Assembly (NCBI GenBank): GCA_903907985.1
Contig: CAIVQG010000020.1
Location: 1 to 52,825 of the forward strand
Source of the DNA: an uncultured delta proteobacterium
GTDB taxonomy: Bacteria > Desulfobacterota > Syntrophia > Syntrophales > Smithellaceae
Reading direction: 5' to 3'
Length of the DNA stretch: 52,825 nucleotides
The position numbers were made by a program, and so were the translations under genes. The notes beneath the pieces were generated by a model that saw only the letters and a list, made by a program, of their open reading frames with translations, was not told the origin of the DNA and ran no database searches. Shown here piece after piece: positions 11,119-52,685 of this stretch (its first letter is position 1; each line of letters opens with the position of its first letter).

Positions 11119-12012
11119 TTAGTGCATTTTTAAAGCCGTCTGTTCCTGAGGGGAACACTCTTCAAAACGCAGGTATTGGTAAAAGAAATGAAAAGGGACA
11201 ATCCCCAGCTCACCATTTCTGTTTTTTGCAACCAAAGCGTCCACCTTGGTTTTTTCTTTATTCAGTGACATGACTTTCTGGAGCAAAATAATTACATCCG
11301 CATAATTCACAATTTGTTCATTTCCCACATCATTCAAACAAGGATAACGCTCACGGGATTCCGGCAATTCCGCCTTCATTGGCAAGGTCAAGAGCACCGG
11401 AATATTCAATTCCCGCGCTAGGTGCTTCAGAGCCAGCATGATAGAGCCAGCTGCATTTTCTGATTTATCATCATCCGGCACAACAAATTGCAGGCTATCA
11501 ACAATAAGCAACTCCAATTTATTATCAGTTTTTAGTTCATTTGCGATCTGGAATATTCTTGACACGGGTAACGGCAAAGTATCGTCAATATTCAAAATTG
11601 ATTCGGATAAGCAGCCGGCAGCCGTAACAAGTCTGGGCCAATCTACTACTGTGAGATCCCCACTTTGCATTGCTTTACAATCCACATTACTTTTCATGGA
11701 AAACAGCCGCAAAAAAACAACTTCTTTGAGCATTTCCGGAGAACACAGCAATACAGGAACTTGTTGCAGCGCTACCCCACTAATAATATTGTGAACAAAT
11801 GCAGACTTGCCCGTGCCGGGCCTACCGGCGATCACAATCACATCCGACTTTTTTAACCCCAGAATCAAAGAATTCAAACCATTAGAAAATGTGGGGATGG
11901 AATATGCACTTCTCTTGAGACAGTAAGCGTCTTCCATATCCCTAAGGCTTTGTTTTACCAGCTCCTTGCCGGACAACATCTCCACCCTATCTATCTTCTT
12001 GGAATTATCCAT
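11119..12012 (-). CDS. Stand-alone DnaB C-terminal-like RecA-fold ATPase
   Basis: The 297-residue protein matches the helicase core of DnaB without its N-terminal primase-interacting domain. Walker A is AGRPGTGKS (62-70), Walker B is LELLIVDSLQFV (D172), the DnaB-like stretch SGDLTVVDWPRLVTAAG leads into NIDDT, and the basic KNRNGELG motif near residue 260 corresponds to KQRNGPTG of replicative helicases. The usual glutamine after VDSLQ is kept, whereas the Gln-rich SQL motif is LTLPM. It is the gene nearest to the left attachment repeat. A role in element replication, or as an ATPase module of a defence system, is possible; neither is shown. An intervening 30 bp separates it from the upstream receiver-like gene, so the two are probably co-transcribed. 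Confidence 0.75.
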   Translation of the reverse strand: MDNSKKIDRVEMLSGKELVKQSLRDMEDAYCLKRSAYSIPTFSNGLNSLILGLKKSDVIVIAGRPGTGKSAFVHNIISGVALQQVPVLLCSPEMLKEVVFLRLFSMKSNVDCKAMQSGDLTVVDWPRLVTAAGCLSESILNIDDTLPLPVSRIFQIANELKTDNKLELLIVDSLQFVVPDDDKSENAAGSIMLALKHLARELNIPVLLTLPMKAELPESRERYPCLNDVGNEQIVNYADVIILLQKVMSLNKEKTKVDALVAKNRNGELGIVPFHFFYQYLRFEECSPQEQTALKMH

Positions 12013-14263: not shown

Positions 14264-15352
14264 TCACTTTTTCGTTGCTACAGCGATCCAGTTGTAGGCG
14301 ATGCCACGGTCCAGGATTTCTCTGGGCGGTAAATTCAAAGGTTTTTCCTGATGAGGATATCCCAACGCTTTGGCCGGCAAGGCATCTACGCCATAAAGGA
14401 TTTCATCGGGAATCGCCGCTTTCCCCGGATAATCGGTGTCGCTATAGATTTCAATCTGATCAAAGCCAGCTTCACGCAGGATTTTCTCCATCTTTTCTTT
14501 TGTCCGAAAATTGAGGCTCCAGCTTTTGGATGAATCTTCCTTAGCCCCCATATGCTGAATCAGGAAACTTGCTAGTGCGTCTGTCTTCTCCATGTGATGA
14601 TTTGATGACGAAACAATCAAAGCGCCGCCTTTGTTTAATTGGTTATAGGACTGCGTCAGGAGATATTGGGCGGCAAAATCCTGGAGACCGCAAATGACGC
14701 CAATCATGATAATAACATCGGCAGGCTCATCGCTCCTGGTCATACTCTTTTCGACATACTCGATCACACCGGGACGGAGTTCTCCCGTCTGATTCTCCAG
14801 ATAGGCGACAATCTGGCGACCGAGCTCGATGGAGTTTATATTTGTGTCGTAATTGAGAACTTTCACTACCCGCCCATTTTGCCCCTTTGTCGCATTAATT
14901 ACATCCAGACCAACGCCAGAGCCGAGGTTTTTCACCATCAATGCCCTTCCTGTTGCCTTGTGAACCTTTTCTAGACAATAAGGAATAACGCCATAGGACA
15001 AGGCAATATGCCTGCGCCGCAAAGAATCGCACATGTCCAGCCCCATGAGGAACTTGTCGAGTTCGATGTTATGATTCGGCGTCGCTGCAAAATCATGAAA
15101 GGTATGAGTGTAAACAATATAAGGGAAAGCAAACCCGAAATGCTGTTTCCGGATTTCATTGGAGATCACACTCTGGTCTTCCCATTTTTGTTGAGTTACT
15201 TGTAGTATTTCGCGGTTATCGGACATGATATCTTTCAGAGAAAGGCCGGAAATCTCTTCAAACCGCCTAAATTCCGGAAGAGAAAGATATGCCTCGGGGT
15301 TGTCGTAGAACCAGGAACGATCAAGTGGAACTTGCATTTGTGCTTCTGACAT
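14264..15352 (-). CDS. SAM-dependent methyltransferase-like protein
   Basis: Residues about 135-290 look like a class I methyltransferase: a glycine-rich VKNLGSGVGLDVINA SAM loop, VVKVLNYDTN (acidic/asparagine after strand 2), DVIIMIGVICGL, and LLTQSYNQLNKGGALIVSSSN as the strand 4-5 region, ending in MEKILREAGFDQIEIYSD. The N-terminal about 130 residues are helical and unassigned. AAGGAGG precedes the ATG. A 71-bp repeat copy (15371-15441) stands directly upstream and probably carries its promoter. The neighbouring thioesterase and LuxR-type HTH ORF share that repeat, so the three may be one regulated set. The substrate is unknown. Confidence 0.7.
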   Translation of the reverse strand: MSEAQMQVPLDRSWFYDNPEAYLSLPEFRRFEEISGLSLKDIMSDNREILQVTQQKWEDQSVISNEIRKQHFGFAFPYIVYTHTFHDFAATPNHNIELDKFLMGLDMCDSLRRRHIALSYGVIPYCLEKVHKATGRALMVKNLGSGVGLDVINATKGQNGRVVKVLNYDTNINSIELGRQIVAYLENQTGELRPGVIEYVEKSMTRSDEPADVIIMIGVICGLQDFAAQYLLTQSYNQLNKGGALIVSSSNHHMEKTDALASFLIQHMGAKEDSSKSWSLNFRTKEKMEKILREAGFDQIEIYSDTDYPGKAAIPDEILYGVDALPAKALGYPHQEKPLNLPPREILDRGIAYNWIAVATKK

Positions 15353-15370
15353 TAACGTATGCCTCCTTAA

Positions 15371-15441
15371 TTGATTTACGCTTCAATAATTAATAACGAC
15401 ATTTATTGGAAATAATTACAGCGTTTGAAAAAATAATCATC
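15371..15441. repeat. 71-bp intergenic repeat, copy A
   Basis: Copy A matches copy B (15924-15994) at 68 of 71 positions. It begins TTGATTTACGCTTCAA on the plus strand and ends at ATAATCATC. It lies immediately upstream of the methyltransferase start and reaches into the last codon of the thioesterase gene. Together with copies B and C it looks like a duplicated promoter/leader or a small dispersed element. Confidence 0.9.
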
Positions 15442-15898
15442 TTATAGCAGCCTGAATTATGGCTTTCAGGTTATCGGGGATGCGACACGGCATGCCTTTC
15501 AGATTCGTATAGACAATCTGCTGACTACCCTGGGCGTGGAGCGCACCTGTTTCGGCATGGATGAAATCAGCATCCAGAGTTAAACTGGCATGCGTTAATT
15601 CCCGCACGCGAAGGCGGATAATCATGGTGTCGCCAAAATAAAAATCTTTGATGTATTCATAACTGGCGTTGCGGGTTTTCAATAGATAAGCGTGGCCCGC
15701 ATCTTTTGTGAAACCGGGGATAAAATCTATGGCGAATAGTTCCCGGACAATACCGAAGTATTTTGCATATTCGTAATGGCTTACATTGCCTTCGGCATTT
15801 GTTTCGGCAAAGGTGATGCGGAATTGCTGTTCATAATCAAGTGCTGCCACCGCAGCGTTTTCTGCTAATGGTACTGCTGCTGAATTTTGATCCGACAT
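15437..15898 (-). CDS. Hotdog-fold acyl thioesterase (4HBT family)
   Basis: The 153-residue protein is a single hotdog domain of the YbgC/4HBT group. The active-site region reads FAETNAEGNVSHYEYAKYFG (about 29-48). It is closer to the ETNxxGN form of enediyne-type thioesterases (TEBC) than to the DTDxxGVV form of YbgC, so the nucleophile Asp is not obvious. The following strands (ASYEYIKDFYFGDTMIIRLR, LDADFIHAETG) fit the fold. GAGGAG precedes the ATG. The gene sits exactly between repeat copies A and B, which suggests that it came in, or was duplicated, as a repeat-bounded cassette. It likely acts on acyl-CoA or carrier-bound acyl groups in the cytoplasm. Confidence 0.78.
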   Translation of the reverse strand: MSDQNSAAVPLAENAAVAALDYEQQFRITFAETNAEGNVSHYEYAKYFGIVRELFAIDFIPGFTKDAGHAYLLKTRNASYEYIKDFYFGDTMIIRLRVRELTHASLTLDADFIHAETGALHAQGSQQIVYTNLKGMPCRIPDNLKAIIQAAIR

Positions 15899-15917
15899 GC
15901 TTTCTCCTCTTGTAATT

Positions 15918-15994
15918 ATTTTATTGATTTACGCTTCAAGAATTAATAACGATTTTTATTGGAAATAATTACAGCGTTTGAAAAAATAATCATC
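15918..15994. repeat. 71-bp intergenic repeat, copy B (slightly longer match to copy C)
   Basis: The core 15924-15994 is nearly identical to copy A. The extension ATTTTA at the left (15918) is shared with copy C. It lies about 20 bp upstream of the thioesterase ATG. Confidence 0.9.
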
Positions 15995-16099
15995 GTTTGC
16001 CGGCTGCTTTTTATTGTGAACGGTTCTTAGAACAAAAATAACTGTTTGTAACCTGTCAGAAATGACAAGTGTGGATGTTATGGAGGCAGCAATAACATT

Positions 16100-16312
16100 T
16101 CAAATATCAATTAGACGCTCGGCAACAGCAATCGCCAAGGCATGTGTGCGGTTTTTGGCATCAAGTTTTTTGATAACGTTTCTGACGTGAAAATTGACGG
16201 TCCGCTCGCTGATCAGCAAAATCCGCGCAATTTCCCATGAGGTTTTGCCTTCTTTAATCCAGCTTAATACTTCGATTTCTCTTTTTGATAAGATCAATTG
16301 CCACCCGCTCAT
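16100..16312 (-). CDS. LuxR-type (GerE) helix-turn-helix ORF, probably N-terminally truncated
   Basis: The 70 residues are a full LuxR/GerE DNA-binding domain: LSKREIEVLSWIKEGKTSWE, IARILLISERTVNFHVRNVI and KKLDAKNRTHALAIA. Normal LuxR regulators carry a signal domain of 150 or more residues in front; here the ATG is created at the very edge of repeat copy C and has no Shine-Dalgarno. I infer that the 5' part was lost when the repeat was placed, leaving a fragment. A deliberate stand-alone HTH protein remains possible, as such single-domain regulators are known. If expressed it could bind the repeated upstream elements. Confidence 0.6.
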   Translation of the reverse strand: MSGWQLILSKREIEVLSWIKEGKTSWEIARILLISERTVNFHVRNVIKKLDAKNRTHALAIAVAERLIDI

Positions 16313-20157: not shown

Positions 20158-20877
20158 ATGGATTCTGAAAAACTGGGTTGTGCCGCTGTCGCCTTTTCCA
20201 AAGGGCCGAAACACAAACACTGTGAAGACCGTTACGCCCTCTTTCCGCTGGCAAAGCCGGTGGTTAAGCGCCAGGACCGCGGTGAGATATTTGCTGTCTT
20301 CGACGGTATCGGCAGTGCGCCGGACGGAATGCATTCCGCCCAGCATATGTGTGACGCGCTGCTTACATATTACTCACAACCCGAATCCTGCACCGGCACA
20401 TGGGAGGGCATCCGTGATCTGCTTTTTACAGCAAACAAAGAGGTCTTCGACTGGGGATTCATGCCCGGTACTGATCGCCCACTTGGTGGTTGCGCCGGAA
20501 GTGTTATCTGGATTTATGAAAAGAAACTCTATACCTTTCATGCCGGAGATACGGTCGCCGTCCTGATCCGGGACGGGAAAGCGACACAACTGACCCATCT
20601 TCACGAGCTGGATGGAGCCATTTATCGCTATTTCGGCTTGGGCGGCAATTTGAAAATTGACATCGCCAATCAGGAATTGAGAAACTATGATCGTATCCTG
20701 CTGATATCCGACGGAGTAACAAAAGTTTTTCATCCCGCCTTCGCCGCCTCAATTGTCGAGGAGCACCTTAATGATCTTAAACAAGCTGTAGAAGATCTAG
20801 CCCGGCGCGCCCGCACAAAAGGCTCACAAGATGACATCACCGTTGTGCTGGTGGAATATGACCCTTACGCGGAATAA
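20158..20877 (+). CDS. PP2C-family Ser/Thr protein phosphatase
   Basis: The 239-residue protein has the PP2C metal-centre motifs: CEDR (22-25), FAVFDGIGSA (D49), GGCAGSV, HAGDT (128-132), LLISDGVTK (D185) and SQDDIT (D225/D226). PP2C enzymes remove phosphate from Ser/Thr residues using Mn/Mg. AAGGAG lies 12 bases before the ATG. It is the only plus-strand gene of the island and converges on the CYTH gene with a 32-bp gap, so it is transcribed separately from the 20.9-30.2 kb operon. No Ser/Thr kinase is visible nearby; its target may be one of the operon's proteins (the vWA gene is a usual companion of PP2C in Ter-type and related systems). Confidence 0.88.
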   Translation: MDSEKLGCAAVAFSKGPKHKHCEDRYALFPLAKPVVKRQDRGEIFAVFDGIGSAPDGMHSAQHMCDALLTYYSQPESCTGTWEGIRDLLFTANKEVFDWGFMPGTDRPLGGCAGSVIWIYEKKLYTFHAGDTVAVLIRDGKATQLTHLHELDGAIYRYFGLGGNLKIDIANQELRNYDRILLISDGVTKVFHPAFAASIVEEHLNDLKQAVEDLARRARTKGSQDDITVVLVEYDPYAE

Positions 20878-20909
20878 AATTTGCGACACGTTATGCCGAC
20901 TTTTGATAT

Positions 20910-21419
20910 TTATCTATGCAGTAAATCGATATAGGCCACATCAACCAGCTCTTTTTTGTCGATCTTAAGTTGAAGTATGATATTTTCGGCAATAACGATT
21001 CCATCTTCGGTGTTCTGATTCTCCTGTAGCATAACCTCCAGTTCTACGAAACTACCCAGCCCTTCAACATCATCGATATGGATTCTGGTTTGTTCGTAAA
21101 GGTAAAGCTTTCTTGTCTTACGAACGACACCCTTCACCCCAAGAGCTTTAGTGAGGGTTTCCTTCAACCCCAGAGGATCACTGCTTTCTGCTTTTAAATA
21201 GGAACTCTGTTTGGGCCCACAAATATTCGGGCGCTCATAGAAGATTAACTCACCTTTGTCAGGTGCTAATATCCGCAGCTTCAATCGCCCACGCGGCACA
21301 TTAAAAAAAATATCCTCTTGAAACAGGAGTATCGGATCTGTTTTCGCAATGTTCCGAACAAGGTTTTCCAGACTGATAACATCACGGACTATGGCCTTAA
21401 TTTCTATGTTAGTCGGCAT
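20910..21419 (-). CDS. CYTH-domain protein, class IV adenylate cyclase-like
   Basis: CYTH enzymes bind triphosphates in a beta tunnel and act as cyclases or tripolyphosphatases. The 169 residues show the family order: NIEIKA at the N-terminus (an EIEIK variant), FQEDIFFNVPRGRLKLRI, GELIFYERPN, VVRKTRKLYLYEQTRIHIDD and GLGSFVELEV. The length and the Q-D-FF / GRLKLR pattern resemble CyaB class IV cyclases more than plant-type tripolyphosphatases. AAGGAG precedes the ATG. It closes the large minus-strand operon, 24 bp after the macro-domain gene. A cyclase next to a macro domain suggests nucleotide signalling, which is inferred. Confidence 0.82.
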   Translation of the reverse strand: MPTNIEIKAIVRDVISLENLVRNIAKTDPILLFQEDIFFNVPRGRLKLRILAPDKGELIFYERPNICGPKQSSYLKAESSDPLGLKETLTKALGVKGVVRKTRKLYLYEQTRIHIDDVEGLGSFVELEVMLQENQNTEDGIVIAENIILQLKIDKKELVDVAYIDLLHR

Positions 21420-21443
21420 AGAGGATGTCTCCTTGCAAAATAT

Positions 21444-21968
21444 TCATCGCCATCCGATATTCCTGGCCAGAGCCTGTAGTGTTTCATAATCACTTGGTTG
21501 CAGGATATGAATATCAAGATTGGCATTAACATTATTTCGTCGGGCAGATTCGTATCCATCTACCATAGAGAGAAAAGCACTTTGCATGGCTAAACGCCAA
21601 CCACCGACCATAAGCGATGCCGCAACTGTATTTATGCTGTATTTTTCGGCAATTCTCAGGGATTTTTCGGTTGCATCGCGAATGATCCCCTGCTTAGCCG
21701 CATCACTGAGCACCTCCCGATGATGAAGCGTTGATGCCAGCAGGATTAATTGAAAAGAGCAGTCCGCGACAGGTTCATATTCGATCACCCTGCCCAGAGT
21801 AATTGGATGTCGGATTTCATCCTGAATCTCACTCCAGACATCCGGCCACCGCAACGCAAATTGGCGGCTGAGATTGCCTTCCATTCCCTTGGCAGCACCA
21901 TCAACAGTCAGGATTATAGCCTCGGCTCTGGCATCAAGGACATTGCCCTGAATAATATTCATCGCCAT
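21444..21968 (-). CDS. Macro-domain-like protein
   Basis: Macro domains bind or hydrolyse ADP-ribose and its derivatives. The N-terminus IIQGNVLDARAEAIILTVDG (5-24) matches the macro entry strand and nucleotide loop, followed by GMEGNLSRQFALRWPDVW, LGRVIEYEP and LILLASTLHH. The usual NAAN after the first strand is replaced by TVDG, and the GVG loop by GGW, so catalytic activity is uncertain although nucleotide binding is plausible. The gene lies between the SEDS gene (115 bp) and the CYTH gene (24 bp). Confidence 0.7.
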   Translation of the reverse strand: MAMNIIQGNVLDARAEAIILTVDGAAKGMEGNLSRQFALRWPDVWSEIQDEIRHPITLGRVIEYEPVADCSFQLILLASTLHHREVLSDAAKQGIIRDATEKSLRIAEKYSINTVAASLMVGGWRLAMQSAFLSMVDGYESARRNNVNANLDIHILQPSDYETLQALARNIGWR

Positions 21969-22083
21969 TGATTATTACCCATAATCCGTTGGTTTTAATT
22001 TAACTTGCTTGTGCTTGCATTAATGTGCGCCAATAATTTATCATAAATAATGATTTCAAAACAGATCCATTCGCCTAATATTA

Positions 22084-23280
22084 TTACAAGCTGCTAAGAT
22101 AGCCACACCTGACGGCAATAATAATCAGAATTACTAAAAAACAAATTGCGGGCTTGTTCATCATAAGAGACAAGTAAGTAGTATGCCCTGATTGTTCTTT
22201 GCGATTTGCCCTCAGGGAGCGAAATAAAAACCCGGCGACAAGAAAGCTGAATATCATTAATGTGCCACCATAGCCAAACGGTATATAGTAAAATATGGGC
22301 AACATATTTACTGAGGCGGCAATTCCGGCAAGGGGAAAAAATGCAAGCATAAATAAGCAACCTTTTAGGATTAACGCTTCCGTTTTATCTTTCACGAGAG
22401 ATGCTGCTTCCAAGCCAAGGACAAAGAACATTCCCTGGAGAAGAAGAAAATACATTATGCCCGCAATACCATATTTGGATGCAAATACAGCGAAGATAAT
22501 ATCCAATGGTTGTGGCGGCATACAACTGACAGCAGCGCCCCATAATCCGCCAATTTTAAAGCACTTCCGTGCCTCTATTATTTGGTAAGATGCGCCCCAC
22601 GGATCGGCCAGATTATAGAAACCCATAATGCGCGGTATCTCATAACCGGATTTGAAAATTAAATACAAACTAAAGAGAGTGCAAGTAATGGCCATAAAAC
22701 TCAACGCCATAGCTTTTTTATTATTGAGAAACAGAAATCCGCTGATGATAAAAAACATTATCAGGAGCATGGGTAAATCGGGTTGCCGCAACAGGCAAAA
22801 GCTGATTACGGTCGTACCAATAATTAGTAAAGATAATTTGAATCGATTCAATTTTTCCTTGCTAGTTGTGATTATCGCACTGCTGATGAGGTAGCAAACG
22901 CAGCTCCAAAATCCCGTGTGTATCCATAAATTGTGGAATCCAAAGTATCTTGTACAGCCGTTAAAGTGCATCGAATAATCCGGGAATAGAACCGGCAGTA
23001 TTGGCAGAATGACTGCGGGAATAAGCCATAATTCAAAACGTGAAAGAAGCTTTTTGAAGTCATATTTGTTAAATTGAATCAGGCAAAACAAAAACGCGCC
23101 AACCAAGACAAGTAATACGTGTTTAGTCAGCAAATAATTTGCAAAAGAATAATCTGGCGAATCCATGCGCCTAATCCAACTGGAAGTAAACAGAATATCC
23201 ATTGTAGTAAGAAAACCCAACATAACCAGGGCAGTTACTGCCGTCAGGAATAGTAAATCGAAACCATTTTCTTCATCCAC
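22084..23280 (-). CDS. SEDS-family membrane protein (FtsW/RodA/SpoVE-like)
   Basis: SEDS proteins are lipid-II-dependent peptidoglycan glycosyltransferases. The 398-residue product has about ten membrane segments and the family marks: a NLADPWGASYQIIEA segment before the conserved loop, PLDIIFAVFASKYG with the aspartate that is catalytic in FtsW/RodA, and a C-terminal NMLPIFYYIPFGYGGT like the LPxxGxxLPFxSYGG of FtsW. Several loop residues differ from chromosomal FtsW. Translation begins with GTG after GGAGGTGA. An accessory SEDS gene next to a pump ATPase, and not beside division genes, is unusual; it may remodel the wall locally for an envelope machine. No cognate class B PBP is visible in the window. 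Confidence 0.8.
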   Translation of the reverse strand: MDEENGFDLLFLTAVTALVMLGFLTTMDILFTSSWIRRMDSPDYSFANYLLTKHVLLVLVGAFLFCLIQFNKYDFKKLLSRFELWLIPAVILPILPVLFPDYSMHFNGCTRYFGFHNLWIHTGFWSCVCYLISSAIITTSKEKLNRFKLSLLIIGTTVISFCLLRQPDLPMLLIMFFIISGFLFLNNKKAMALSFMAITCTLFSLYLIFKSGYEIPRIMGFYNLADPWGASYQIIEARKCFKIGGLWGAAVSCMPPQPLDIIFAVFASKYGIAGIMYFLLLQGMFFVLGLEAASLVKDKTEALILKGCLFMLAFFPLAGIAASVNMLPIFYYIPFGYGGTLMIFSFLVAGFLFRSLRANRKEQSGHTTYLSLMMNKPAICFLVILIIIAVRCGYLSSL

Positions 23281-23302
23281 AAATCACCTCCAAGAATTAT
23301 GT

Positions 23303-25792
23303 CTAACTTTCTTCCCTCCAGATATTTCGGCGATACTCAATTTGCTTTTTGATTTTTTCGACATCGCAGCCGTAAATCTGCCGGGAAAAGTTGCAAACTT
23401 TCTCAGCTACTCTCTTGCTATAAGTCGTTTTGTCCATCATGCTTTCAAAGCTAAACGGCGTAACTGTGGCATTTCTTATTTGCAGGCGGCAGTAGCCCTG
23501 CCAATTCGGTAAGCCGATAATATCCATAGTGTTAAAATACGGATAAAGTGACTGCGCCAAAAGCCTGGCGTCTTCTTGCCCCAGACGGAAAATTGTCATA
23601 CAACCGACATTCCCCAATATCGCGGAAAGAAGATTATCCCCCGGTATATCGCTGCAGAGTTGTGTCGCATACTGTGTGGCCAGGACAAGTCCCATACGAT
23701 ATTTGCGTGCCTCGGAAAGAAGCTCGGTAAAATTTGAAGCCGGCAGGTTGTGGCACTCATCCACATACAGGTAAAAATCCCGCCGTTCTTCCGGACGCAT
23801 TTCACCCCGCTTCATGGCGGCATGTTTGAAACGTGAAACTAATTGATTGGCCAATAACGCGCTGACGGAAGACCCGAAGCGGCCCTTGCCCAACTTAACC
23901 AGAAATATTTTACCCTCCGCCATAATTTCATCAAAATTGAATGACGTCTGCTCCTGGCCGATGATGTTCATCAAGGTTATATCATGCACAAAGCGTCCAA
24001 ATTTGGATGTAATATATGGAGCAAGATTATTGAGGCTGGCGTCACCTCCGGTTTTTTCCAGTTCTTTAATAAAATCAGTTGTTATGTGGTCATCAATTCG
24101 CTTCATTAGCCATTTGCGAAATCCTGCATGAAGATAACAATCCCGGAATTCTAGAATTGTCGGTTTGTAATCAGCCGCTGCCGGATTACTGCCCATCAGC
24201 AGCCGCAACATGCCGCGCAGATTCGTTTCAAATATCGGCCCGCCGGTCACCTTCATAGAATAGATTTTGTCTAAGGTGTCATATATTTCATCAATCACAA
24301 AGTCGCGTTCTTCTTCTGTGTGCCACTGCAGAAGATTAAAGCCCAGCGGCCTTTTCCGGTCGAGGAAGTCAAAAATGATTACATCATCGATTCTTTCCGG
24401 TGGTATCTTTCCCAGAATTGAATCCACCATATCACCGTGTGGATCAATGACCGCAAGGCCATGACCGGCACGGATATCCTGCAAGATCATTGATTCCATC
24501 AAGGTTGATTTTCCCGTACCCGTCTGACCGATTATGAACGTGTGCCTCATGCGATCGTCGGCGGGCAGCCGAACAGGTTGCGACATGCCGTTATGGATAT
24601 TCCGGCACAAATCAACGCCGTCTTCCTTGCCGATATCAAAATCCGGCAACAGCGACAGATTTGTCCGGGAACGGCGCATCGGCAGTCCCGGGATTTCCTG
24701 CATGGGCGGTGACGGTAAACGGAAGGCGCAGGCAGCTTCACTGATGGCATAGGGCGCTTGTTCTGGGAAATAATTGCTCCTGACGGCTTTCTTAATATTA
24801 ACCGCAGAAACGGCAAAACCGCCGCTATAAATTGAATCCTTCTCCGACATACAATCTCTCGTCGTAAGAGCCTGCCCCAGAATGTTGCTGAGCGATGGAT
24901 CGATGGAGTGGCCGGCAAGAAGAAATACACCTACGCCCAAAGCGCCATTGTACAATTCCGACAACTGATTTAAGAGAGCGCTTCTTAACAGGGCAGCCTG
25001 ATGCTGCAAGCTGATTTGATAGGGTTTGCCGGAATGAAGGAAAAGTTCACAGGCCTGAATATCGTTTTCCATGGCTTTGCGTTGAGCGGACGACAGCTCT
25101 GCTGGACGCAGCCGGATTATTACCTGTAAAGGATCAAGTTGGCACATCATTGTTTGAATAAGACGCGTCCAGTCATCCAGCGACGGCCGCCAAGGATAAG
25201 CATAATTCACAAAATGACTTTTCGCTGCTTCTTGCGGGACATTATTGTCAGGGAATAAACCCGTGACGGTTTTTCGCTCCAGCGCCTCGCTTACCTGAAT
25301 ACTTTGAGTACGCCGATGCACAGCTGCCGCATGTGTCGGCTGGAAAGGTGACAAGTGAAATTGCAATTCATCCTGATGACTGATCGGCACAAATTCAGCC
25401 TCTGGCATGTGAGACTGGAGCAAACCGCGCAGCACCAGATATTTGGCCAGAGCTTCCTGCTTTGCATTTAATTCTGTTTTCGCCCGGGCGCTAAGCAGCA
25501 TCACGATGAGAACGCGGCCCCGGGCATTGAATTGCAGATTTGGCAGCGATGTAATGCGCAGCTCCAGCGTGATTGTTTCCGGCCAGGCGGAAAGCGCCTG
25601 AATTAGCCCTTCCCGCAGCACGGTCATTTTATGTTGATTGGCGGAAACAGTTTTATCTTCCGAAACGTCCGTCTGGTTTTTTTCAAAAAACAAGTCGCCT
25701 TTCAGGAGGGATTTCATTTCCAGCCCCACGATTGCTACAAAACCACCCGTTATCTTCTGCGTTATGACTGTCGGAAAATATTTCTTATTCAT
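23303..25792 (-). CDS. TraG/VirD4-HerA-like hexameric pump ATPase
   Basis: The 829-residue protein has a ~400-residue N-terminal region without clear domains, then a P-loop core: FIIGQTGTGKSTL (Walker A about 422-430), AVIDPHGDMVD, and YLYVDECHNL (Walker B) with a distal GLVLATQYATQL sensor motif. This order fits conjugation coupling proteins and HerA/TraG-type pumps (DUF87-like helicase part plus TraG C-terminal). No membrane segments are evident, unlike VirD4. Relaxase and type IV secretion genes are absent, so a classical conjugation role is unlikely. The ATG at 25792 (GGGG eight bases upstream) is favoured over an upstream GTG at 25810. It is 22 bp upstream of the SEDS gene. Confidence 0.85.
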   Translation of the reverse strand: MNKKYFPTVITQKITGGFVAIVGLEMKSLLKGDLFFEKNQTDVSEDKTVSANQHKMTVLREGLIQALSAWPETITLELRITSLPNLQFNARGRVLIVMLLSARAKTELNAKQEALAKYLVLRGLLQSHMPEAEFVPISHQDELQFHLSPFQPTHAAAVHRRTQSIQVSEALERKTVTGLFPDNNVPQEAAKSHFVNYAYPWRPSLDDWTRLIQTMMCQLDPLQVIIRLRPAELSSAQRKAMENDIQACELFLHSGKPYQISLQHQAALLRSALLNQLSELYNGALGVGVFLLAGHSIDPSLSNILGQALTTRDCMSEKDSIYSGGFAVSAVNIKKAVRSNYFPEQAPYAISEAACAFRLPSPPMQEIPGLPMRRSRTNLSLLPDFDIGKEDGVDLCRNIHNGMSQPVRLPADDRMRHTFIIGQTGTGKSTLMESMILQDIRAGHGLAVIDPHGDMVDSILGKIPPERIDDVIIFDFLDRKRPLGFNLLQWHTEEERDFVIDEIYDTLDKIYSMKVTGGPIFETNLRGMLRLLMGSNPAAADYKPTILEFRDCYLHAGFRKWLMKRIDDHITTDFIKELEKTGGDASLNNLAPYITSKFGRFVHDITLMNIIGQEQTSFNFDEIMAEGKIFLVKLGKGRFGSSVSALLANQLVSRFKHAAMKRGEMRPEERRDFYLYVDECHNLPASNFTELLSEARKYRMGLVLATQYATQLCSDIPGDNLLSAILGNVGCMTIFRLGQEDARLLAQSLYPYFNTMDIIGLPNWQGYCRLQIRNATVTPFSFESMMDKTTYSKRVAEKVCNFSRQIYGCDVEKIKKQIEYRRNIWREES

Positions 25793-25809
25793 TGTTGTAA
25801 CCCCAAACA

Positions 25810-26043
25810 CTAAAATGGCAGTTCGTCTTCAATATGAAGAATCTGATTAGTCACAGAATCCGGTAGTTCCATCTCTGCAAGCTCCAGTGCCAGCGTTTCC
25901 TTAACTTGCAAATTAGCCGCCTGCTGTTTCTGAAAACTCCGCATGACCTCGCTTTGGGTGTCTTGCTGCTGTAGTTCCAGATTGCCATCTGCGCAATTAT
26001 TCTGCACATCTGCTTCTTTGTTTCCCAATACCTCCTGCGTCAT
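25810..26043 (-). CDS. Small acidic glutamine-rich protein
   Basis: The 77 residues are Gln/Glu/Leu-rich and probably a coiled coil (QKQQAANLQVKETLALELAE). AAAGGAGG is a near-perfect ribosome site before the ATG, which argues that the gene is real. It overlaps or abuts the ATPase gene and may be its partner or adaptor. No family recognised. Confidence 0.65.
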   Translation of the reverse strand: MTQEVLGNKEADVQNNCADGNLELQQQDTQSEVMRSFQKQQAANLQVKETLALELAEMELPDSVTNQILHIEDELPF

Positions 26044-26192
26044 GCTTCCTCCTTTAAAATCGTTGATAATGACTCCCCATTAAAAGATAACGATGTTTTT
26101 CGCGAAACATTACACGAGAAGAAAATACTTTTATGCATTAGAAGGATAAGATTTTGTTGCAGAGGTTAAGTGAGTTGTCTCACGGTGAAAAT

Positions 26193-27353
26193 TTAGCGTT
26201 TTGTCAGCGTAATATCCGTTACCCACAGTTCAGATCCGGCCTGACTGTGAGTGGCGCCGCACCAGAGGATAACAGCAATCTGGCGTATATCCGTCGAATT
26301 GAGTCCCATAAGGTTATCTTCAATCTCCTTTTTTAGATTAATTTGATAGTCCTTGTAAAACCGGCCTTTTTCAATGTCAACAAAATGAGTTTTATAGCCG
26401 TCGTCAGTGCGTCGCGGAACACCGATTAGCGGCGTATCGGCAAAAGGATTTTTTACATAATTGACCAGAAGTGTTTCCCCCAATTTATTGCCGCCTTCAT
26501 CCAAATACACAAGTCCGATCTGCACCACACCGCTCCCGGAAAAGCCGCTCATCATCCCTTCATTCGAGTGTGCCTGAAAAGAAGCACTGAAAATGAGATC
26601 GGGTCCGGGCACCGTCACAAGTTGCATCAATTGAATATTGCCCTCGCCCTTGTGACGGACGTGCAAGGCTTTACCCGTTCGGCCATGAGCAAAAGCCATG
26701 ATTTCCGCCTGGCTGTAACCTTTAGTAATATCACCAACCTGCTTCTTCCAACCTTCGTATTGGCGGCTGAAATCGCCATTAGTCAGTAAATTACCTTTTT
26801 TGTATTTTGGTTTTTCCGGTTTATCGATTTTTTCATCAGTGTTATCAAGTCCGTCCATCAATGCGTTTATATCGTCCGAGCGGTCAATTGATGCCGTAGA
26901 TACGGCGAATATTTTGCCGGTTTCTGAATCAATCAGGCGGGCATTTACCCTTACTGTTTTTGGGAGGGGTGTTAACGTGCCCAGACATACGGCATCAGCG
27001 CCTAAAAACCGGCCTATCTTCTGGGCAGACTTAGCATCCACAACACCGGAGTTGCGAAACTCAGATTCCTGAAGCACCTTCTTCATATACATTCTTTCAA
27101 CAACACTGACCTTGTCCTCTTTCACCAGACGCGTTAATATTTCTTCGGCAACAAATTTGCCCAGCCTGGAATCCCGGCCATACAAGTCGTTAAAATCAAG
27201 CACTGCCACTTTTTGTTTATTCTGATTGCCAATTTCCACTGTAATTTGATGAGACAACTCGTCCATCGCCATATCAATCGGCAGCGCCCAGCAGAATATC
27301 GGAAAAATGAGAAATATATACGAAAGAATTAAAAGGATCATTTTATGTTTCAT
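26193..27353 (-). CDS. Secreted FlgO/CsgG-like protein with C-terminal beta-sandwich (CBM-like)
   Basis: The 386-residue product has a signal peptide (MKHKMILLILSYIFLIFPIF, cleavage near CWALP at about 25). Residues about 45-165 resemble the FlgO/CsgG fold: QKVAVLDFNDLYGRDSRLGK, VAEEILTRLV, VSVVERMYMKKVLQES and DAVCLGTLTPLPKTVRVNARLIDSETGKI. After a linker, residues about 190-386 look like a carbohydrate-binding-type jelly roll (LLTNGDFSRQYEGWKKQVGD ... LWVTDITLTKR). CsgG/FlgO-like proteins form or accompany outer-membrane assemblies. Here it may provide the periplasmic/outer-membrane part of the operon's machine. TAAGGAG stands before the ATG. Confidence 0.78.
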   Translation of the reverse strand: MKHKMILLILSYIFLIFPIFCWALPIDMAMDELSHQITVEIGNQNKQKVAVLDFNDLYGRDSRLGKFVAEEILTRLVKEDKVSVVERMYMKKVLQESEFRNSGVVDAKSAQKIGRFLGADAVCLGTLTPLPKTVRVNARLIDSETGKIFAVSTASIDRSDDINALMDGLDNTDEKIDKPEKPKYKKGNLLTNGDFSRQYEGWKKQVGDITKGYSQAEIMAFAHGRTGKALHVRHKGEGNIQLMQLVTVPGPDLIFSASFQAHSNEGMMSGFSGSGVVQIGLVYLDEGGNKLGETLLVNYVKNPFADTPLIGVPRRTDDGYKTHFVDIEKGRFYKDYQINLKKEIEDNLMGLNSTDIRQIAVILWCGATHSQAGSELWVTDITLTKR

Positions 27354-27422
27354 ATCTTTGTCTCCTTATTGCTCTGATGTTCTTGACTTTAAGCTGATCT
27401 TGGCATCGTCTCTTCCAGGAAA

Positions 27423-28007
27423 TTATTCAAGCGTCTCTTCTTGCATAAATTTATCCCTGTCTTTAAAGAATACCTCCATAAATTCTCTGTATTTTGGTAG
27501 CAATTCATGAGTTTGATCATCAATTTGCAAGCTTCTGCTATATGCATGTTCACCTTTTCCAATCTCACCCAAATCTATGTGGCATGTTCCTAACAACCCC
27601 CATACATTTGCATTTTCATATCCCTCTTGAATAATTTTTTGAAGGTCATCTCTTTTTTCATACATGGTTGTGCTACCATTATTAGATAAATACAGAACAA
27701 ACCGCCTATAGCCGGGATTTTTGATATTTTCCAAATCTTGAAGAAATTTTGTATAGTCTTCATCGTCCAATGACTGGTCTATTCTGTTTCTTCTATCCGC
27801 CTCCTCAAAGAGTAATTGCGCAGCATCAAAATCGTGAAGATCTTCATACAGTTCGGCAACAATTGCACAGAAACTGGCGAGGCAAATCTTTTCATTGCGT
27901 GTCTCAATGGCATTCAGCACTAAGGGTGTCGTTTCATCGTCCGCTTTCTTCCGCTTCAGGATATTTCTGAGGTTATCGTAAACTTCTATTAGTTGCTGAT
28001 CGTTCAC
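27423..28007 (-). CDS. TPR-like helical protein
   Basis: The 194-residue product starts with GTG after TAGGAGGT. It is helical throughout, with TPR-like pairs near 65-80 (DFDAAQLLFEEADRRN) and 128-165 (NANVWGLLGTCHIDLGEIGK then GEHAYSRSLQID). Cytoplasmic, no catalytic motif. It sits in the operon between the small membrane protein and the FlgO/CsgG-like gene, and probably acts as an adaptor. Confidence 0.65.
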   Translation of the reverse strand: MNDQQLIEVYDNLRNILKRKKADDETTPLVLNAIETRNEKICLASFCAIVAELYEDLHDFDAAQLLFEEADRRNRIDQSLDDEDYTKFLQDLENIKNPGYRRFVLYLSNNGSTTMYEKRDDLQKIIQEGYENANVWGLLGTCHIDLGEIGKGEHAYSRSLQIDDQTHELLPKYREFMEVFFKDRDKFMQEETLE

Positions 28008-28134
28008 TAATTACCTCCTAATTAAATAATCAAACACTGCATGAGACTCTCCTTTACCTGGCAAGCCACCAGTTATCATGAATATTGGTATTAATATGTC
28101 ATAAAGACTTTCTGTCATTCCATCAGCAGCGCTT

Positions 28135-28383
28135 CTATCTACCAAAAATGATTCCCAATAAACCGCGCAGCAGGTTGATTCCGAGTATCACGACAATAGA
28201 CAAAAGCAGCCAGGTGGGAACATCTTTTGCATAACTTCCGGTGCAAGGTAAAAAGGCAAGTGTACCTGCTACAATGACAATCAGTAACAAGGCTGCCTTA
28301 AACTTTATCAGTCGAAGCATCGTGCCGATGCCTATAACAACTGTTGCCGCTAAAAAAGGTGCACCTGATATTTGCTCCATAGC
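28135..28383 (-). CDS. Small membrane protein (two to three TM segments)
   Basis: The ATG at 28383 follows GGAG at good spacing and is preferred over the ATG at 28392 without one. The 82 residues are mostly hydrophobic: FLAATVVIGIGTMLRLI, LLLIVIVAGTLAFLPC and WLLLSIVVILGINLLRGLL. It follows the vWA gene almost without a gap and probably belongs to the same membrane complex. No family recognised; small holin-like or TrbC/VirB2-like proteins look similar, and the latter would fit the TraG-like ATPase, but this is speculative. Confidence 0.65.
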   Translation of the reverse strand, partial: AMEQISGAPFLAATVVIGIGTMLRLIKFKAALLLIVIVAGTLAFLPCTGSYAKDVPTWLLLSIVVILGINLLRGLLGIIFGR

Positions 28384-28395
28384 CGGCTCCATAAT

Positions 28396-29181
28396 TTATT
28401 TCAGATTCAAAGCAATCGTCCTTTCCGAGGAAACACTGACATTCCCCGCCGAGGCCTTTTCCCCGTACTCTTTCCAAAAAGACTGAATTTTGCGCCAGTG
28501 GGCATTGTCGATGCCATGCGTTGGTGTCACTCCGACAAAAATCAATCGCGCACCGTGCAGATCCGGTATAAAATCATTGCGGGCCGCGGTTTTCAAATCG
28601 CCGGATAACGGGGCCTTTTTTTCCATATTGAACCCGTCACCCACCTGCTGGCCGTCTGTAAAGAGAATCAATACGGCATGAGGACTGCTGAGAGAATCAG
28701 CCTTCTGCGCGGCCACAAAACGCATAAACCCGAATAAGTCCGTGCGCTGGGCCTTGTCGGATTGAACAAGCGGAAGAACGTTCGCCTGCCAGCAAGACTG
28801 CCACGCGTCTTGAGCGGCCTTTTTCTCACGGGCCAGCATCTGACCGGCAGGCCCCGCCTGATCGGACATTTTGACGGAAAAAACCGCTTCCTGTTCCGAT
28901 TCGGCACGGGAATGGATCAAATACACAGACATCTCATCGCCTGTCTTTAAATTGGCTACCAGCTTGTCTATGGCCAGACGATCCTTTTCCAGTTCCTTTT
29001 CACGTCCGGCGGTTATATCCAGTCCGACGATAATCACCCGTGGTTTTTGGTCTACTAGTTCCGCCTGCTCAGCGTAATGCGCAGCCTTATTCACTGCCGG
29101 CTTAAAATCCACAATACCAGCATAATGAAGTCCCAGGGCCGTTGCCGATAAAACACCCAATATCGCCAGAGTCTTTGTCAT
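28396..29181 (-). CDS. Membrane-anchored von Willebrand A-like protein
   Basis: A hydrophobic N-terminus (TLAILGVLSATALGLHYAGI) acts as signal or anchor. The vWA fold follows: IIVGLDITAGREKE (about 49-62) in the place of the DxSxS metal site, KTGDEMSVYLIHS, LFGFMRFVAAQKA, and AVLILFTDGQQVGD. The metal site is imperfect (DITAG, last Ser replaced by Gly), so it may bind partners without metal. vWA proteins often nucleate complexes with AAA or pump ATPases and PP2C phosphatases. AAGGAGG precedes the ATG. Neighbours: the four-TM gene upstream and the small membrane gene downstream. Confidence 0.7.
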   Translation of the reverse strand: MTKTLAILGVLSATALGLHYAGIVDFKPAVNKAAHYAEQAELVDQKPRVIIVGLDITAGREKELEKDRLAIDKLVANLKTGDEMSVYLIHSRAESEQEAVFSVKMSDQAGPAGQMLAREKKAAQDAWQSCWQANVLPLVQSDKAQRTDLFGFMRFVAAQKADSLSSPHAVLILFTDGQQVGDGFNMEKKAPLSGDLKTAARNDFIPDLHGARLIFVGVTPTHGIDNAHWRKIQSFWKEYGEKASAGNVSVSSERTIALNLK

Positions 29182-29207
29182 TTTGATTTCCTCCTTGCAT
29201 TTTTGTT

Positions 29208-30191
29208 TTATGCAGACTGCATTTTTATTTTTTCAAACTGCGGCCTGGCTTCAGGATTTCCTGCGCCACCAATATGGTATCCCCGAATGTATTTGTTTTG
29301 TCGAAAATAGATTGTCTGATTTATAACGTCATCCAACCGTGCATCGAATTCCTCAAGTTTTCGAAGAAGCACATTCCATTCATTTTGTAGCACCATCAGA
29401 CTTACCTTTTCTTTATAGAGACGCAGAGAATTTCCGGCAATGTTCATACGTTCCTGAGCTGTTTCATACAGAACCCCGCAAATAAAAGGTACTCCCAGCG
29501 TCAATCCTGTCATCAGGAGGATATTGCCAATATTGATTTGATCGATATTAGGCCCACCTCCAGTGAGACCGCCCTTAAATGTTTCCGCACGCAGTATAAC
29601 AAAACCAATCAGACCAAGAACTGTCAGAAAAAGCGCAATAGCCAGCACAATCCATTTAACCTGCGACTTCTTTTCGTTTGATACCTTACTCAGCATCAGC
29701 TTGATCCCAAACGCAACCAGTGCACTTAGAAGTACAGCAACGACAAGGGCAGGTATCAATCCCTGTCCAAAAGTGCTTTTGGCAATATAGGTCAAGGCTG
29801 TCATTTCGCAGATAAGCAGAAACGTGGCAAAAAAAGTTTCCTTCTTGGCTGCCCAATACTCCGACAGAGCCACCGCCTCCGGAAGAAGGCCATTTTCTGC
29901 TTTTAACGCATCTGCCTTTTGTTGATGGTCCTCCAGCAGCTTTTCTATGTGGCTGAGGTTGGTTTTGGCTTCTCCTACTACCTGCTGGATGTTATTGCGC
30001 GTTTCATTACGATAACGCAGCTCCTCCGCTGTGACGCCATCGAGCGCCGCCTGCCAGGCTATAGGCGCTTTTTTACCGTCACGTCGGCCTCGCCAGTAGT
30101 CTCGGTTAAACATTCCTGCGTAATTAGTTGACTCTTTCTGACCGGGATAAGTTCTGATAGATCGCATACTTCTTGACGGACTTTTCAGCAT
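29208..30191 (-). CDS. Four-TM membrane protein with coiled-coil regions
   Basis: The 327-residue protein has a cytoplasmic N-terminal ~110 residues with a coiled coil (NIQQVVGEAKTNLSHIEKLL). Membrane segments lie near 118-135, 145-165, 180-202 and 225-245, followed by a charged C-terminal region rich in helix (KEKVSLMVLQNEWNVLLRKL). No family is recognised. AAGGAGG precedes the ATG. It is the first gene of the 20.9-30.2 kb operon; the 384 bp upstream should hold the operon promoter. It may be the inner-membrane scaffold of the pump/SEDS complex. Confidence 0.65.
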   Translation of the reverse strand: MLKSPSRSMRSIRTYPGQKESTNYAGMFNRDYWRGRRDGKKAPIAWQAALDGVTAEELRYRNETRNNIQQVVGEAKTNLSHIEKLLEDHQQKADALKAENGLLPEAVALSEYWAAKKETFFATFLLICEMTALTYIAKSTFGQGLIPALVVAVLLSALVAFGIKLMLSKVSNEKKSQVKWIVLAIALFLTVLGLIGFVILRAETFKGGLTGGGPNIDQINIGNILLMTGLTLGVPFICGVLYETAQERMNIAGNSLRLYKEKVSLMVLQNEWNVLLRKLEEFDARLDDVINQTIYFRQNKYIRGYHIGGAGNPEARPQFEKIKMQSA

Positions 30192-37880: not shown

Positions 37881-40800
37881 TTATGTGTTTCGTCTCATTT
37901 CGATAATTTTACTGTGTAGATGTTTAGTTAGCAGATAGAGATTCTCTTCACTTGCGGAAACAGCATCGTAAACAGCAATGCATTCTTCTGCGTTGACTTT
38001 TTTTAAAAACGCTCCCCATAATATCCTTTCAGAGTCTTTTAAATCAGAATAATATATTAATTCTGCAATTTTGCTTATCACATTAGCCCTTGTCGCCGTT
38101 ACAAGGTCATTCGTTTTTTGCGAATTCCATGCCTTAAGTTTACTTACCCATCGAGGATCGGTGCGGATGGATTCTAGATCAGGATCTTTCTGCATCCATT
38201 CAAAGTCCGGCTCTTGCTTTTTCGCAACATACTTCGCCAACCATTCGAATGCTTCATCAGTCTTGCCCAGGCGGGCCGATAGGCATGCATGATTGCCATA
38301 CTGGGCTTCCGGATCAATCAGATCGGATTTATCCAGGTAGATGGCGCAAAGATCAAAATCATCAATTACCATAGAAGAAACAATCATGGAATTATAGGCA
38401 TATAGAAGCTTATGAATCTTCCCCGTTTTCTGTTGCAGTTCCAATGCAATCGATTCCATATCCCGACAGAACTTCAGTCTTGAATCATGATTATCTCTTG
38501 CACTATGATAGAAATGTTGAATTTCCGCAAAACGGAACCGCAAAGCTGCATCCTGCGGCAAAGAATCGGGGATCAACGCCTTGATCATATCTATTTTATC
38601 CTTTTGCCGCGCATATTCTGCTGGCAAGGAACCGCCGATTTCTTTGCAAAGGTCTGCGCCTTTACTAAGTGCAAGAGATACGATCTCCTTATATCCTTTT
38701 CTTATGGCCCAACGCAGACCCTCGTCTGGTGTAAGCCTACCTTCCATAATAGCTGCAATGGTTCCCTTTTCATTGAATTGAGAATACTGAACGGGAAGGT
38801 TTGTTTCATGTTTATCATTTTGCTCATTTCCACATGAGGTTAATGTTGAGATCGCATCTCTCAGCAATAATTCCTTTGTTTTAGTGACACTATGTTCCAC
38901 TTCTTCTAGAGAAATGCGGTGATCACCGTTGTATGTTCGCAAGAAACATACTTGTCCATTTTCCTGAGTGGCAATGACGAGGCCTTCATGTTTTAATAAT
39001 TTCTGTTTACAATATACAAGGCTGTTCCAGCAAATGCTTATTATACTGTCATGACCGTAAACATCTAAACATAAAAGACATCTTTTTTTATCAATAATAG
39101 AGCGGGAACAAATACATGCCTCAGAAAAATACTTGCTTCTGACTTCAGGGAAAAGGTTAAAGCTTTGAATTTGTGAATAAACAGAAAATCGATTACGATG
39201 AATATCCCATAGATGTACTCTTCTGTCATCTGACCATAACAAAATCTCACCATCAGACAGCAGCAAAGCGCCTCTGATGTCTTGAACCACCTGAATTGCT
39301 AATGGCTCACCATCGTAACTCCACAAGAAAATAGTCCCATCATCTGCCCATGAAAGAATTTGACCATCAGGGATCAGTAGCACACCTTTGCTTTCGCAAG
39401 TATGCCCTTCAAGTGAACCCAGGCAATTACCATCGCTATCCCACAAGCGGAGAGTTTTGTCACCTGACCATGATAAAATTCGACCATCTGGTGTCAACAA
39501 AACACCTCTGACTTGTCCCGTATGTCCTTCAAGTGTCGCAATGGGCTTACCATCGACATCCCACAGCCGGAGAGTTTTGTCACCTGACCATGATAAGATT
39601 CGACCATCTGGTGTCAACAGTACCCCATTGAGCATGATCGTATGGCCTAAAAGTGTTGCCAACGGTTTACCATCAATATCCCACAGGCGAAGGGTCCCAT
39701 CCCATGACCATGACAAAATCCGTCCATTAGGCATCAATAAAACACCATTGATCTGTGTTGTATGGCCTTCAAGTGTCGCCAATGGTTTACCACCGACATC
39801 CCACAAACGGAGAGTCTTGTCCCCTGACCATGACAGGATTCGTCCATCATGGATCAGCAGAGCACCCTTGATGCTACCCATGTGCCCTTTAAGTGTCACC
39901 AAGGGATTACCATCGCTATCCCACAGGCGAAGAGTCTTGTCCGCCGACCATGACAAGATTCGGCCATCTGGTATCAACAGAGCACCCCGGATGCTACCCA
40001 TGTGCCCTTTAAGTGTCACCAAGGGATTACCATCGCTATCCCACAGGCGAAGAGTTTTGTCCGCCGACCATGACAAAATCCGTCCATTAGACATCAGTAA
40101 TGTCCCATCTATCTTGGCCCTGTGACGATCATAGTCGATTAATGCTTTCTCGTCAGTATTCCATAGGCGCGCGGTACCATCATCTGACCATGACAGGATT
40201 CGTTCATCAGGCATCACCAGAGCACCATGGACGTGTCTTGTATGCCCTGCAAGGTTCGCAGTAGGCTTGCCATCGACAGCCCACAGGCGAAGAGTCCCAT
40301 CCCATGACCATGACAAAATCCGTCCATTAGGCATCAATTGGGCACCGGAGACATTGCCTGTGTGCCCCTCAAGTGTCACTAAGGGATTACCATCGCTATC
40401 CCACAGGCGAAGAGTCTTGTCCGCCGACCATGACAGAATTCGACCATCTGGCATCAACAGAGCACCATGGATGCTACCCATGTGCCCTTTAAGTGTCACC
40501 AAGGGATTACCATCGCTATCCCACAGGCGAAGAGTCTTGTCCTCTGACCATGACAAGATGCGACCAGCAGGCACCAGCAGGGTACCATGGACTTGTCTTG
40601 TATGTCCTTCAAGTGTCGCAGTGGGCTTGCCATCACCATCCCACAGGCGAAGAGCATTGTCCGCCGACCATGACAGAATTCGACCATCTGGTGTCAACAG
40701 AGCACCCCAGATACTATCCGTGTGCCCTTCAAGTGTCGCCAAGTGCTTGCCATCGCCATCCCACAAACGGAGAGTCTTGTCCCCTGACCATGACAGGATT

Positions 40801-43370: not shown

Positions 43371-43603
43371 TATGGCACACTTCACCTTTTGAATGTCTTA
43401 TCTTATATCTTAGCTATTGCATTGCTTCACAAAATAATGCCCTAAGGAAATGCCCTGAGCATTCATATAACCTTAACGCCATATTTCGCCATTCATTACA
43501 CCGGTGGCTAAAAAATATTCTACTGATGTGATATGGCCGTCGGTGGATTCAGAATAACTTTCGCCCTATTAAAGCACATTCTAGCAGAGATTATTATTAA
43601 TTA

Positions 43604-45325: not shown

Positions 45326-45327
45326 CT

Positions 45328-45630
45328 TTACGACACACCGCCACTTTTTGTAATTTTGTAACCCAGCGCCATAATCATCTTCACTGTTTCCATCGCAGTT
45401 TTACGGTCGTATTCTTTCTCTTCTTCCGTAAGGCTTGAATAGGGCACCAAGTCCGGATGTTTATTCTTCTGATCGTCCCGTTGCGGCCCGTAAGTCCAAC
45501 CCTGAGACATTCTTTGCCTAGCCCAGATATCATGGGCATTTTCTGCCAGACTCTCTGTTAGTTTTAAAAGGTCTTCTGACAATTTAATGTGCTGCGTATC
45601 AACGGGCTTGGGTTTATATTCCATTTTCAT
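45328..45630 (-). CDS. RyR-domain protein
   Basis: RyR domains are short ligand-recognition modules found in ryanodine receptors and in bacterial nucleotide-centred conflict systems. The ~100 residues read EYKPKPVDTQHIKLSEDLLK, AENAHDIWARQRMSQGWTYG, HPDLVPYSSLTEEEKEYDRK and TVKMIMALGYKI, a complete domain. The start at 45630 or 45624 is chosen inside the end of the TrkA-RyR gene; the frame is open to 45663, which would overlap by 50 bp. It lies between the TrkA-RyR gene and the SLOG-TM gene and is coupled to both. Confidence 0.85.
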   Translation of the reverse strand: MKMEYKPKPVDTQHIKLSEDLLKLTESLAENAHDIWARQRMSQGWTYGPQRDDQKNKHPDLVPYSSLTEEEKEYDRKTAMETVKMIMALGYKITKSGGVS

Positions 45631-52675: not shown

Positions 52676-52685
52676 AAAATATATA

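Follow-up and report, generated by a model that had tools for sequence, protein, structure and literature searches.

What does a motor ATPase of the kind found in type IV secretion systems (T4SS) drive when it is encoded among membrane proteins and proteins that look exported? This question is raised by positions 20,158 to 30,191 of contig CAIVQG010000020.1, from an uncultured delta proteobacterium (Smithellaceae). The whole contig (52,825 bases, hereafter the window) was analysed, and it belongs to a genome of 3.4 Mb in 83 contigs. A sequence-only reading of the region had proposed a cell-wall-spanning conduit built around a TraG/HerA-like ATPase, an accessory FtsW/RodA-type protein and several envelope proteins. 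The set of genes does exist, but only some of its members recur together elsewhere. Its core is a translationally coupled pair, formed by the motor (835 amino acids, 23303-25810, minus strand) and an open reading frame (ORF) of 77 amino acids (25810-26043, minus strand). The earlier gene list was right in outline, but it had overlooked this small ORF together with a macro-like and a CYTH-domain gene, and we were unable to confirm the vWA and sugar-binding labels that it gave. We tentatively favour the view that the pair may well serve an envelope-associated export or assembly machine, in which a cytoplasmic, phosphorylation-controlled T4SS-like motor and its adaptor would work with membrane and exported partners that vary among lineages.

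Matches to the motor at 1e-60 were found in 5 of the 155 genomes of the order, namely its own, G043 (where the contig end truncates the gene), G069, G134 and, with 33% identity, G045. At 1e-80 five of the 395 genomes of the phylum matched (its own, G272 and G282 over the whole length, G371 and G493 at 41-42%). A first pattern scan of genome contigs gave 34 pattern matches and no relative; an alignment-based contig scan gave at least 20 loci, with one of the close clade among the matches listed. This further close relative (L044) comes from a metagenome-assembled genome (MAG) of the Desulfobacteraceae. In a tree of 17 motors, those of the window, G043, G069, G134, G272, G282 and L044 form a clade supported at 100/100, that is, the window, five genomes of its phylum and the Desulfobacteraceae MAG. 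The neighbourhood comparison took in both close and distant loci, 26 besides that of the window (L076 and L077 belong to a single contig, and L092 has no motor); the distant relatives (29-42% identity) were excluded from the counts for the clade. One distant locus, L017 (G045:C42), encodes a TraG-like ATPase; the contamination listed for this genome is 9%, and the contig may be mis-binned, as its genes look by eye foreign to the rest.

In each of the seven clade members a small ORF directly precedes the motor, overlapping it or within about 55 base pairs (bp), and in the window the two overlap by one base at the motor start. Six of the seven counterparts are tied together by phmmer, that of G134 by alignment only, and in a conserved C-terminal stretch four residues (N44, K48, L55 and L69 in the numbering of the window) are invariant in all seven. 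The pair can be used as a marker for collecting related loci. The conserved linkage expected from the earlier reading was found for some genes and not for others: the small ORF, the phosphatase and the C-terminal domain of the FlgO-like protein recur elsewhere, which points to more than chance, and no recurrence was found for the SEDS (FtsW/RodA) gene and the protein with four hydrophobic segments.

That the motor is TraG/HerA-like was borne out, as it belongs to the T4SS/HerA superfamily by family matches and by model fold. Two Pfam families match it above their gathering thresholds, TrwB_AAD_bind (PF10412, E 4.1e-11) and DUF87 (E 8.4e-7), and the NCBIfam models for SXT TraD and a CD1115 VirD4-like protein match below their cut-offs. 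About 380 N-terminal amino acids precede the TrwB/VirB4/HerA-type motor, which carries a Walker A motif (GQTGTGKST, residue 428) and a Walker-B-like motif (FYLYVDE, residue 679). In VIA superpositions an AlphaFold model (12-sequence alignment, pLDDT 80.7, pTM 0.59) was closest to the VirB4 motor domain (4ag6; Z 28.1, 346 aligned, 3.4 Å) and to TrwB (1e9s; Z 27.6, 372 aligned, 3.6 Å). In its core the modelled protein has the same fold as TrwB/VirD4, VirB4 and HerA. The top Foldseek match is a full-length TrwK/VirB4 over 950 columns that span the N-terminal part too, but this N-terminal likeness to VirB4 is only suggestive, because full-range superpositions gave root mean square deviations of 16-18 Å. 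While the structure places VirB4 and TrwB at about the same distance, hhalign (single sequences compared) prefers TrwB, with a probability of 95% for TrwB of R388 and of 12%, for the motor part only, for TrwK/VirB4. The resemblance to these T4SS proteins concerns the motor fold and the Foldseek alignment. Unlike them, the protein has no match to the VirB4 N-terminal domain (PF03135) in the Pfam scan and no hydrophobic segment, its genome has no PF03135 gene, and its small partner is a different one.

A rival reading sees here a defence or signalling island, in which a HerA-like motor would act on DNA or assemble a cytosolic effector complex. PP2C, vWA and ADP-ribose-binding proteins would tune it, and the envelope genes would be mere bystanders. 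We consider it possible, if somewhat unlikely. The model does superpose on the HerA subunits of the SIR2-HerA and DUF4297-HerA complexes (Z about 19-21), with which the motor shares its ATPase superfamily and a signalling type of neighbour, and PADLOC models for mad8 (E 1.2e-15) and HerA (E 5e-7) match it. However, even the best HerA (4d2i, Z 23.1) scores below VirB4 and TrwB. In addition, the Pfam scan of the region, which covered ten ORFs, found no nuclease, SIR2, DUF4297 or kinase family among them.

Is the motor then part of a mobile element? Its distant plasmid relatives are annotated as 'type IV secretion system DNA-binding domain-containing protein'. Close relatives were absent from 72,556 plasmids (none of 152 matching records covers 80% of the query) and from 50,697 phages (none of 26), and a pattern scan of viral contigs gave none either. 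The PF03135 profile at E 0.001 matched none of the seven clade genomes and 1 of 14 control genomes. Plain conjugation was rejected on these grounds, the searches having returned distant relatives or none. The earlier statement that relaxase and VirB genes are missing, and their absence from the homologous operons that were inspected, hold as far as PF03135 is concerned; for relaxases they extend to the ORFs given to Pfam, among which there was none, not every ORF having been scanned and the genomes not having been searched with a relaxase profile. It appears improbable to us that the motor is an orphan coupling protein, a remnant of conjugative or mobilizable elements that was retained or exapted without any fixed system. 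The preference of the family models for coupling proteins (TrwB_AAD_bind, with SXT TraD and CD1115 VirD4-like below cut-offs), the hhalign result for R388 TrwB and the annotation of the plasmid relatives all speak for such an origin. Against it stand the missing PF03135 matches and close mobile relatives, the absence of relaxase from the scanned subset of ORFs, the intact 835-codon frame and the retention of the small partner across the clade.

A protein phosphatase of the PP2C Ser/Thr type (20158-20877, plus strand; Pfam E 1.8e-11, above gathering) converges on the genes of the opposite strand, as had been noticed from the sequence. In G272 its ortholog (58% identity) lies 22 bp behind the motor on the same strand. 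Among nine genomes with close or distant motors the ortholog occurs in two (the own genome and G272), and a stretch with 34% identity was found in G069. In the phylum it is present in 3 of 395 genomes (the own genome, G272 and G440), two of which bear the motor. Close motor and phosphatase thus each occur in 3 of the 395 genomes (two draws, apparently of an identical set). If the own genome is not counted, the shared genome and the 22-bp junction in it are not expected by chance.

The envelope is suggested by other neighbours. Upstream of the small ORF lies a gene (26193-27353, minus strand) whose product has an N-terminal domain matching FlgO (E 3.1e-10) and CsgG (E 1.4e-9) in Pfam, both above gathering, a signal-like hydrophobic start (residues 6-24) and a C-terminal domain of about 200 amino acids. 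In G134 this C-terminal domain (56% identity) is encoded by an ORF in its own right immediately after the motor gene, and its product has a hydrophobic segment at the N-terminus; a CsgG-domain ORF without hydrophobic segment is found about 6 kb downstream of the motor. The earlier description as a secreted FlgO/CsgG-like protein agrees with the family matches and the hydrophobic start; its sugar-binding-type domain is unconfirmed: neither the C-terminus nor the G134 homolog has a Pfam match. Near the motor, ORFs with N-terminal hydrophobic segments appear in five of the six other clade loci (G272, G134, G282, L044 and G043), a point that also speaks against the defence island. Downstream of the PP2C gene of G272 there are two LPP20-type ORFs, one just above the Pfam cut-off and the other below it and with a hydrophobic start; two caspase/CARDB-type ORFs with hydrophobic starts follow the motor in G282. 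Upstream in G272 we found an ORF with four hydrophobic segments, a vWA protein (PF13519, 8.1e-7), an AAA protein and DUF2997-like and radical-SAM-like proteins. The envelope theme of these neighbours is suggestive rather than proven. Two regions, L016:10994-15696 and L077:3550-8182, hold a sigma-54-activator-type protein (3.7e-7) and a protein of about 970 amino acids (1.8e-29). Both proteins are encoded near the motor in G043 as well as in G272, and so make a second set of neighbours that recurs.

How could such a machine work? The motor would form a hexamer, docked to the inner membrane by its small partner and by local membrane proteins, and its ATP hydrolysis could drive the assembly of an envelope complex or export into it. 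The partners would be exchangeable: of FlgO/CsgG type in the window, and of LPP20, caspase or Tubulin_2/vWA type elsewhere. PP2C may switch the machine by dephosphorylating one of its components, and the SEDS, macro and CYTH genes would be local additions.

Several observations weigh against this envelope motor. The motor itself has no hydrophobic segment in a Kyte-Doolittle scan, and so lacks the N-terminal transmembrane segments of VirD4/TrwB type. The same hydropathy scan, rather than a signal-peptide predictor, was used to judge hydrophobic segments and starts throughout. The small ORF is the sole constant partner and all others vary from locus to locus; the K-type PP2C, that is, an ortholog of the phosphatase of the window, is absent from the other five of the seven clade genomes, and in G440 its copy is split over two ORFs with no motor in 19 kb, which counters a strict PP2C-motor link. 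The CsgG-type N-terminal domain finds matches in 96 of 197 relatives, so that chance neighbours are possible. In G043 the only hydrophobic neighbour noted is an ORF of 116 amino acids next to the small partner, with one such segment. Contig ends cut three of the seven clade loci beside the motor (G069, G043 and G282), and the two similar gene cassettes of L044 and G069 count as one event because their motors are sisters (100/100). Finally, we infer rather than observe the hexamer, the membrane docking, the substrate, the phospho-control and the location of the motor.

The defence island draws further on the neighbourhood. A macro-like gene is present in the window (21444-21968, minus strand; it matches the PARP14 macro chain at E 0.0095 and nothing in Pfam), L044 has a macro gene by Pfam, and in G272 the ORF beside the small partner, which has a hydrophobic start, matches PARP below cut-off. 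Sets of kinase, PP2C and stand-alone vWA proteins have been described before (PMC7159879). The same contig also encodes TIR/NPHP3_N/WD40 and TrkA-N/RyR proteins. They lie in a stretch upstream of the operon (37884-47911) that is likely a conflict or defence region, with a protein of 1834 amino acids (TIR, a NACHT-like NPHP3_N and many similar WD repeats), an ORF of 573 amino acids without Pfam match and a TrkA-N plus RyR protein.

The cassette mentioned above invites a comparison of the proposed envelope motor with systems already described. In L044 the order is vWA, Tubulin_2, a protein of 736 amino acids, a transglutaminase-like and an OB-like protein, small partner, motor, two ORFs with hydrophobic starts and macro; the transglutaminase and OB matches are below cut-offs and the macro gene is a Pfam match. 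G069 keeps this cassette order, but about 7 kb are inserted, with Lon-like and sigma-like ORFs among them; its Tubulin_2 and vWA genes are assigned by homology to L044. The vWA proteins of motor loci are supported by Pfam in L044 and G272 and by homology in G069; the candidate in the window has no profile match, and a vWA profile built here found none in G043. In the window itself, a pair of genes at 48864-51758 encodes a Lon_C-like protein and, beside it, a protein that looks like a sigma factor by eye, without Pfam support. The former is homologous (1.9e-67) to the Lon-like protein whose gene (L015:6166-8118) separates the cassette of G069 from its motor; a similar-looking ORF precedes the Lon-like gene there too.

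We take the Tubulin_2 family of Pfam to be FtsZl1. Operons of FtsZl1 with vWA proteins, kinases, GTPases, OmpA-like proteins and lineage-specific transmembrane proteins were predicted to remodel membranes (Makarova and Koonin, 2010; PMC2875224). The cassette in line with the two sister motors of L044 and G069 resembles these operons, as do the lineage-specific membrane proteins. In contrast, the genome of the window has no Tubulin_2 match, PP2C and the small partner are extra here, and no T4SS/HerA-type motor is named among the partners in the portion of PMC2875224 consulted. The window locus is not classed as a member of these operons, since its genome lacks Tubulin_2; at best it works alongside them. 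A second comparison is with the GAP1-N2 systems, in which tubulin and vWA or kinase, PP2C and vWA sets are placed near the membrane (Kaur et al., 2020; PMC7159879). Tubulin, vWA and transmembrane proteins, or PP2C with a stand-alone vWA, are shared with them; unlike in those systems, GAP1 and kinase were not among the scanned ORFs (the genome was not searched with their profiles), and the section of PMC7159879 consulted names no HerA/VirB4-type motor. A literature search, with most subscription journals outside its reach, recognised no description of the present gene set.

What the pair may add is an energy source. The remodelling operons were predicted in 2010 without an energy-coupling motor of T4SS/HerA type being named, in the sections of PMC2875224 consulted, and an ATPase of T4SS type that has its own small partner, beside such a cassette or beside a phosphatase and predicted exported proteins, is a concrete candidate engine. 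A wider claim would be that the small ORF and the motor are the constant engine of an undescribed modular envelope machine of Desulfobacterota-type bacteria (a phylum taken from the Desulfobacteraceae member of the clade). In it a non-conjugative, phosphorylation-controlled T4SS-type ATPase would power export into the envelope, or its remodelling, by way of exchangeable outer parts and, in some lineages, filaments of FtsZl1 type. We hold this to be unlikely.

The conduit with its own SEDS wall synthase, as proposed by the sequence-only reading, is in our view very unlikely. The SEDS gene (22084-23280, minus strand) does lie 22 bp behind the motor and matches FTSW_RODA_SPOVE (E 2.1e-24, above gathering); two further SEDS genes in the genome make it an accessory one, and its D260 aligns with a RodA residue that is D in 6bar but mutated to A in 6bas. 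The protein is divergent, as the glycine-rich loop of RodA is gone and the EE/EW region reads SK. It has no ortholog in the 395 phylum genomes (the other matches at 1e-17 are only 23-29% identical) and no relative in the 26 other loci, and in five motor-bearing genomes including its own nothing outside the window exceeds the ordinary FtsW/RodA level. The contigs of G069 and G043 end downstream of the motor, where the gene would lie, but both genomes were searched whole. G226, one of the six other matches at 1e-17, has a neighbourhood that reads as a standard division and cell-wall cluster (names by eye). No penicillin-binding family was matched among the ten scanned ORFs either. An FtsW/RodA-type gene beside the ATPase is present, as claimed, but no recurrence with other motors was found, and the local wall synthesis built on it found no support in the 26 loci, the four other motor genomes or the phylum. 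As far as searched, the gene is a feature of this one locus and looks like a local passenger. The wall-spanning conduit and the local wall synthesis are still inferred parts of that model.

The remaining genes share the strand of the motor. From the four-segment protein to the CYTH gene all ten ORFs are on the minus strand, with intergenic distances of 26, 3, 127, 69, 149, -1, 22, 115 and 24 bp, so that several transcription units are possible. The outermost (29208-30191, minus strand) has four hydrophobic segments. Neither the remaining 154 genomes of the order nor plasmids gave a relative of it, and its matches in the PDB are at chance level. An 85-residue protein has three such segments (28135-28392, minus strand). 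Between them, at 28396-29181 (minus strand), is a protein with a single N-terminal hydrophobic segment that is vWA-like by motif only, by eye. Searches in plasmids, PDB, family libraries and the 26 loci left the vWA assignment unconfirmed: Pfam, NCBIfam, PADLOC, PHROGs and the small vWA profile gave no match. This profile was built from four proteins that it recovers and had one match in a control of 635,186 bases, in which some loci overlap and are counted twice, so that this low background is indicative only. The single-sequence model (pLDDT 43.5) is too poor to decide the fold; in Foldseek some of the weak matches are chains of vWA type (MDN1-MIDAS at rank 8, prob 0.51), and in VIA-align methyltransferases outrank such chains. 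The presumed TPR-like adaptor (27423-28007, minus strand, no hydrophobic segment) matches TPR models, but all below gathering scores. The CYTH-domain gene (20910-21419, minus strand) matches CYTH at E 6.1e-18 and NCBIfam cyaB below cut-off. At 1e-4 the 26 other loci gave no relative of any of these five proteins, nor of the SEDS and macro-like ones.

Elsewhere on the contig, positions 14267-16312 hold the gene of a methyltransferase (2.3e-122) together with a short ORF, by eye of the LuxR-type helix-turn-helix kind (1.6e-9); their homologs lie less than 4 kb from the motor of G134 (L014:4089-6421), so that they are part of a wider shared neighbourhood. A protein of 297 amino acids (11122-12012) has a DnaB C-terminal helicase domain from residue 39, which leaves no room for the usual N-terminal domain. 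At the contig end three tRNA genes (Lys, Arg and His) stand in a row at 52505-52762, possibly an island border.

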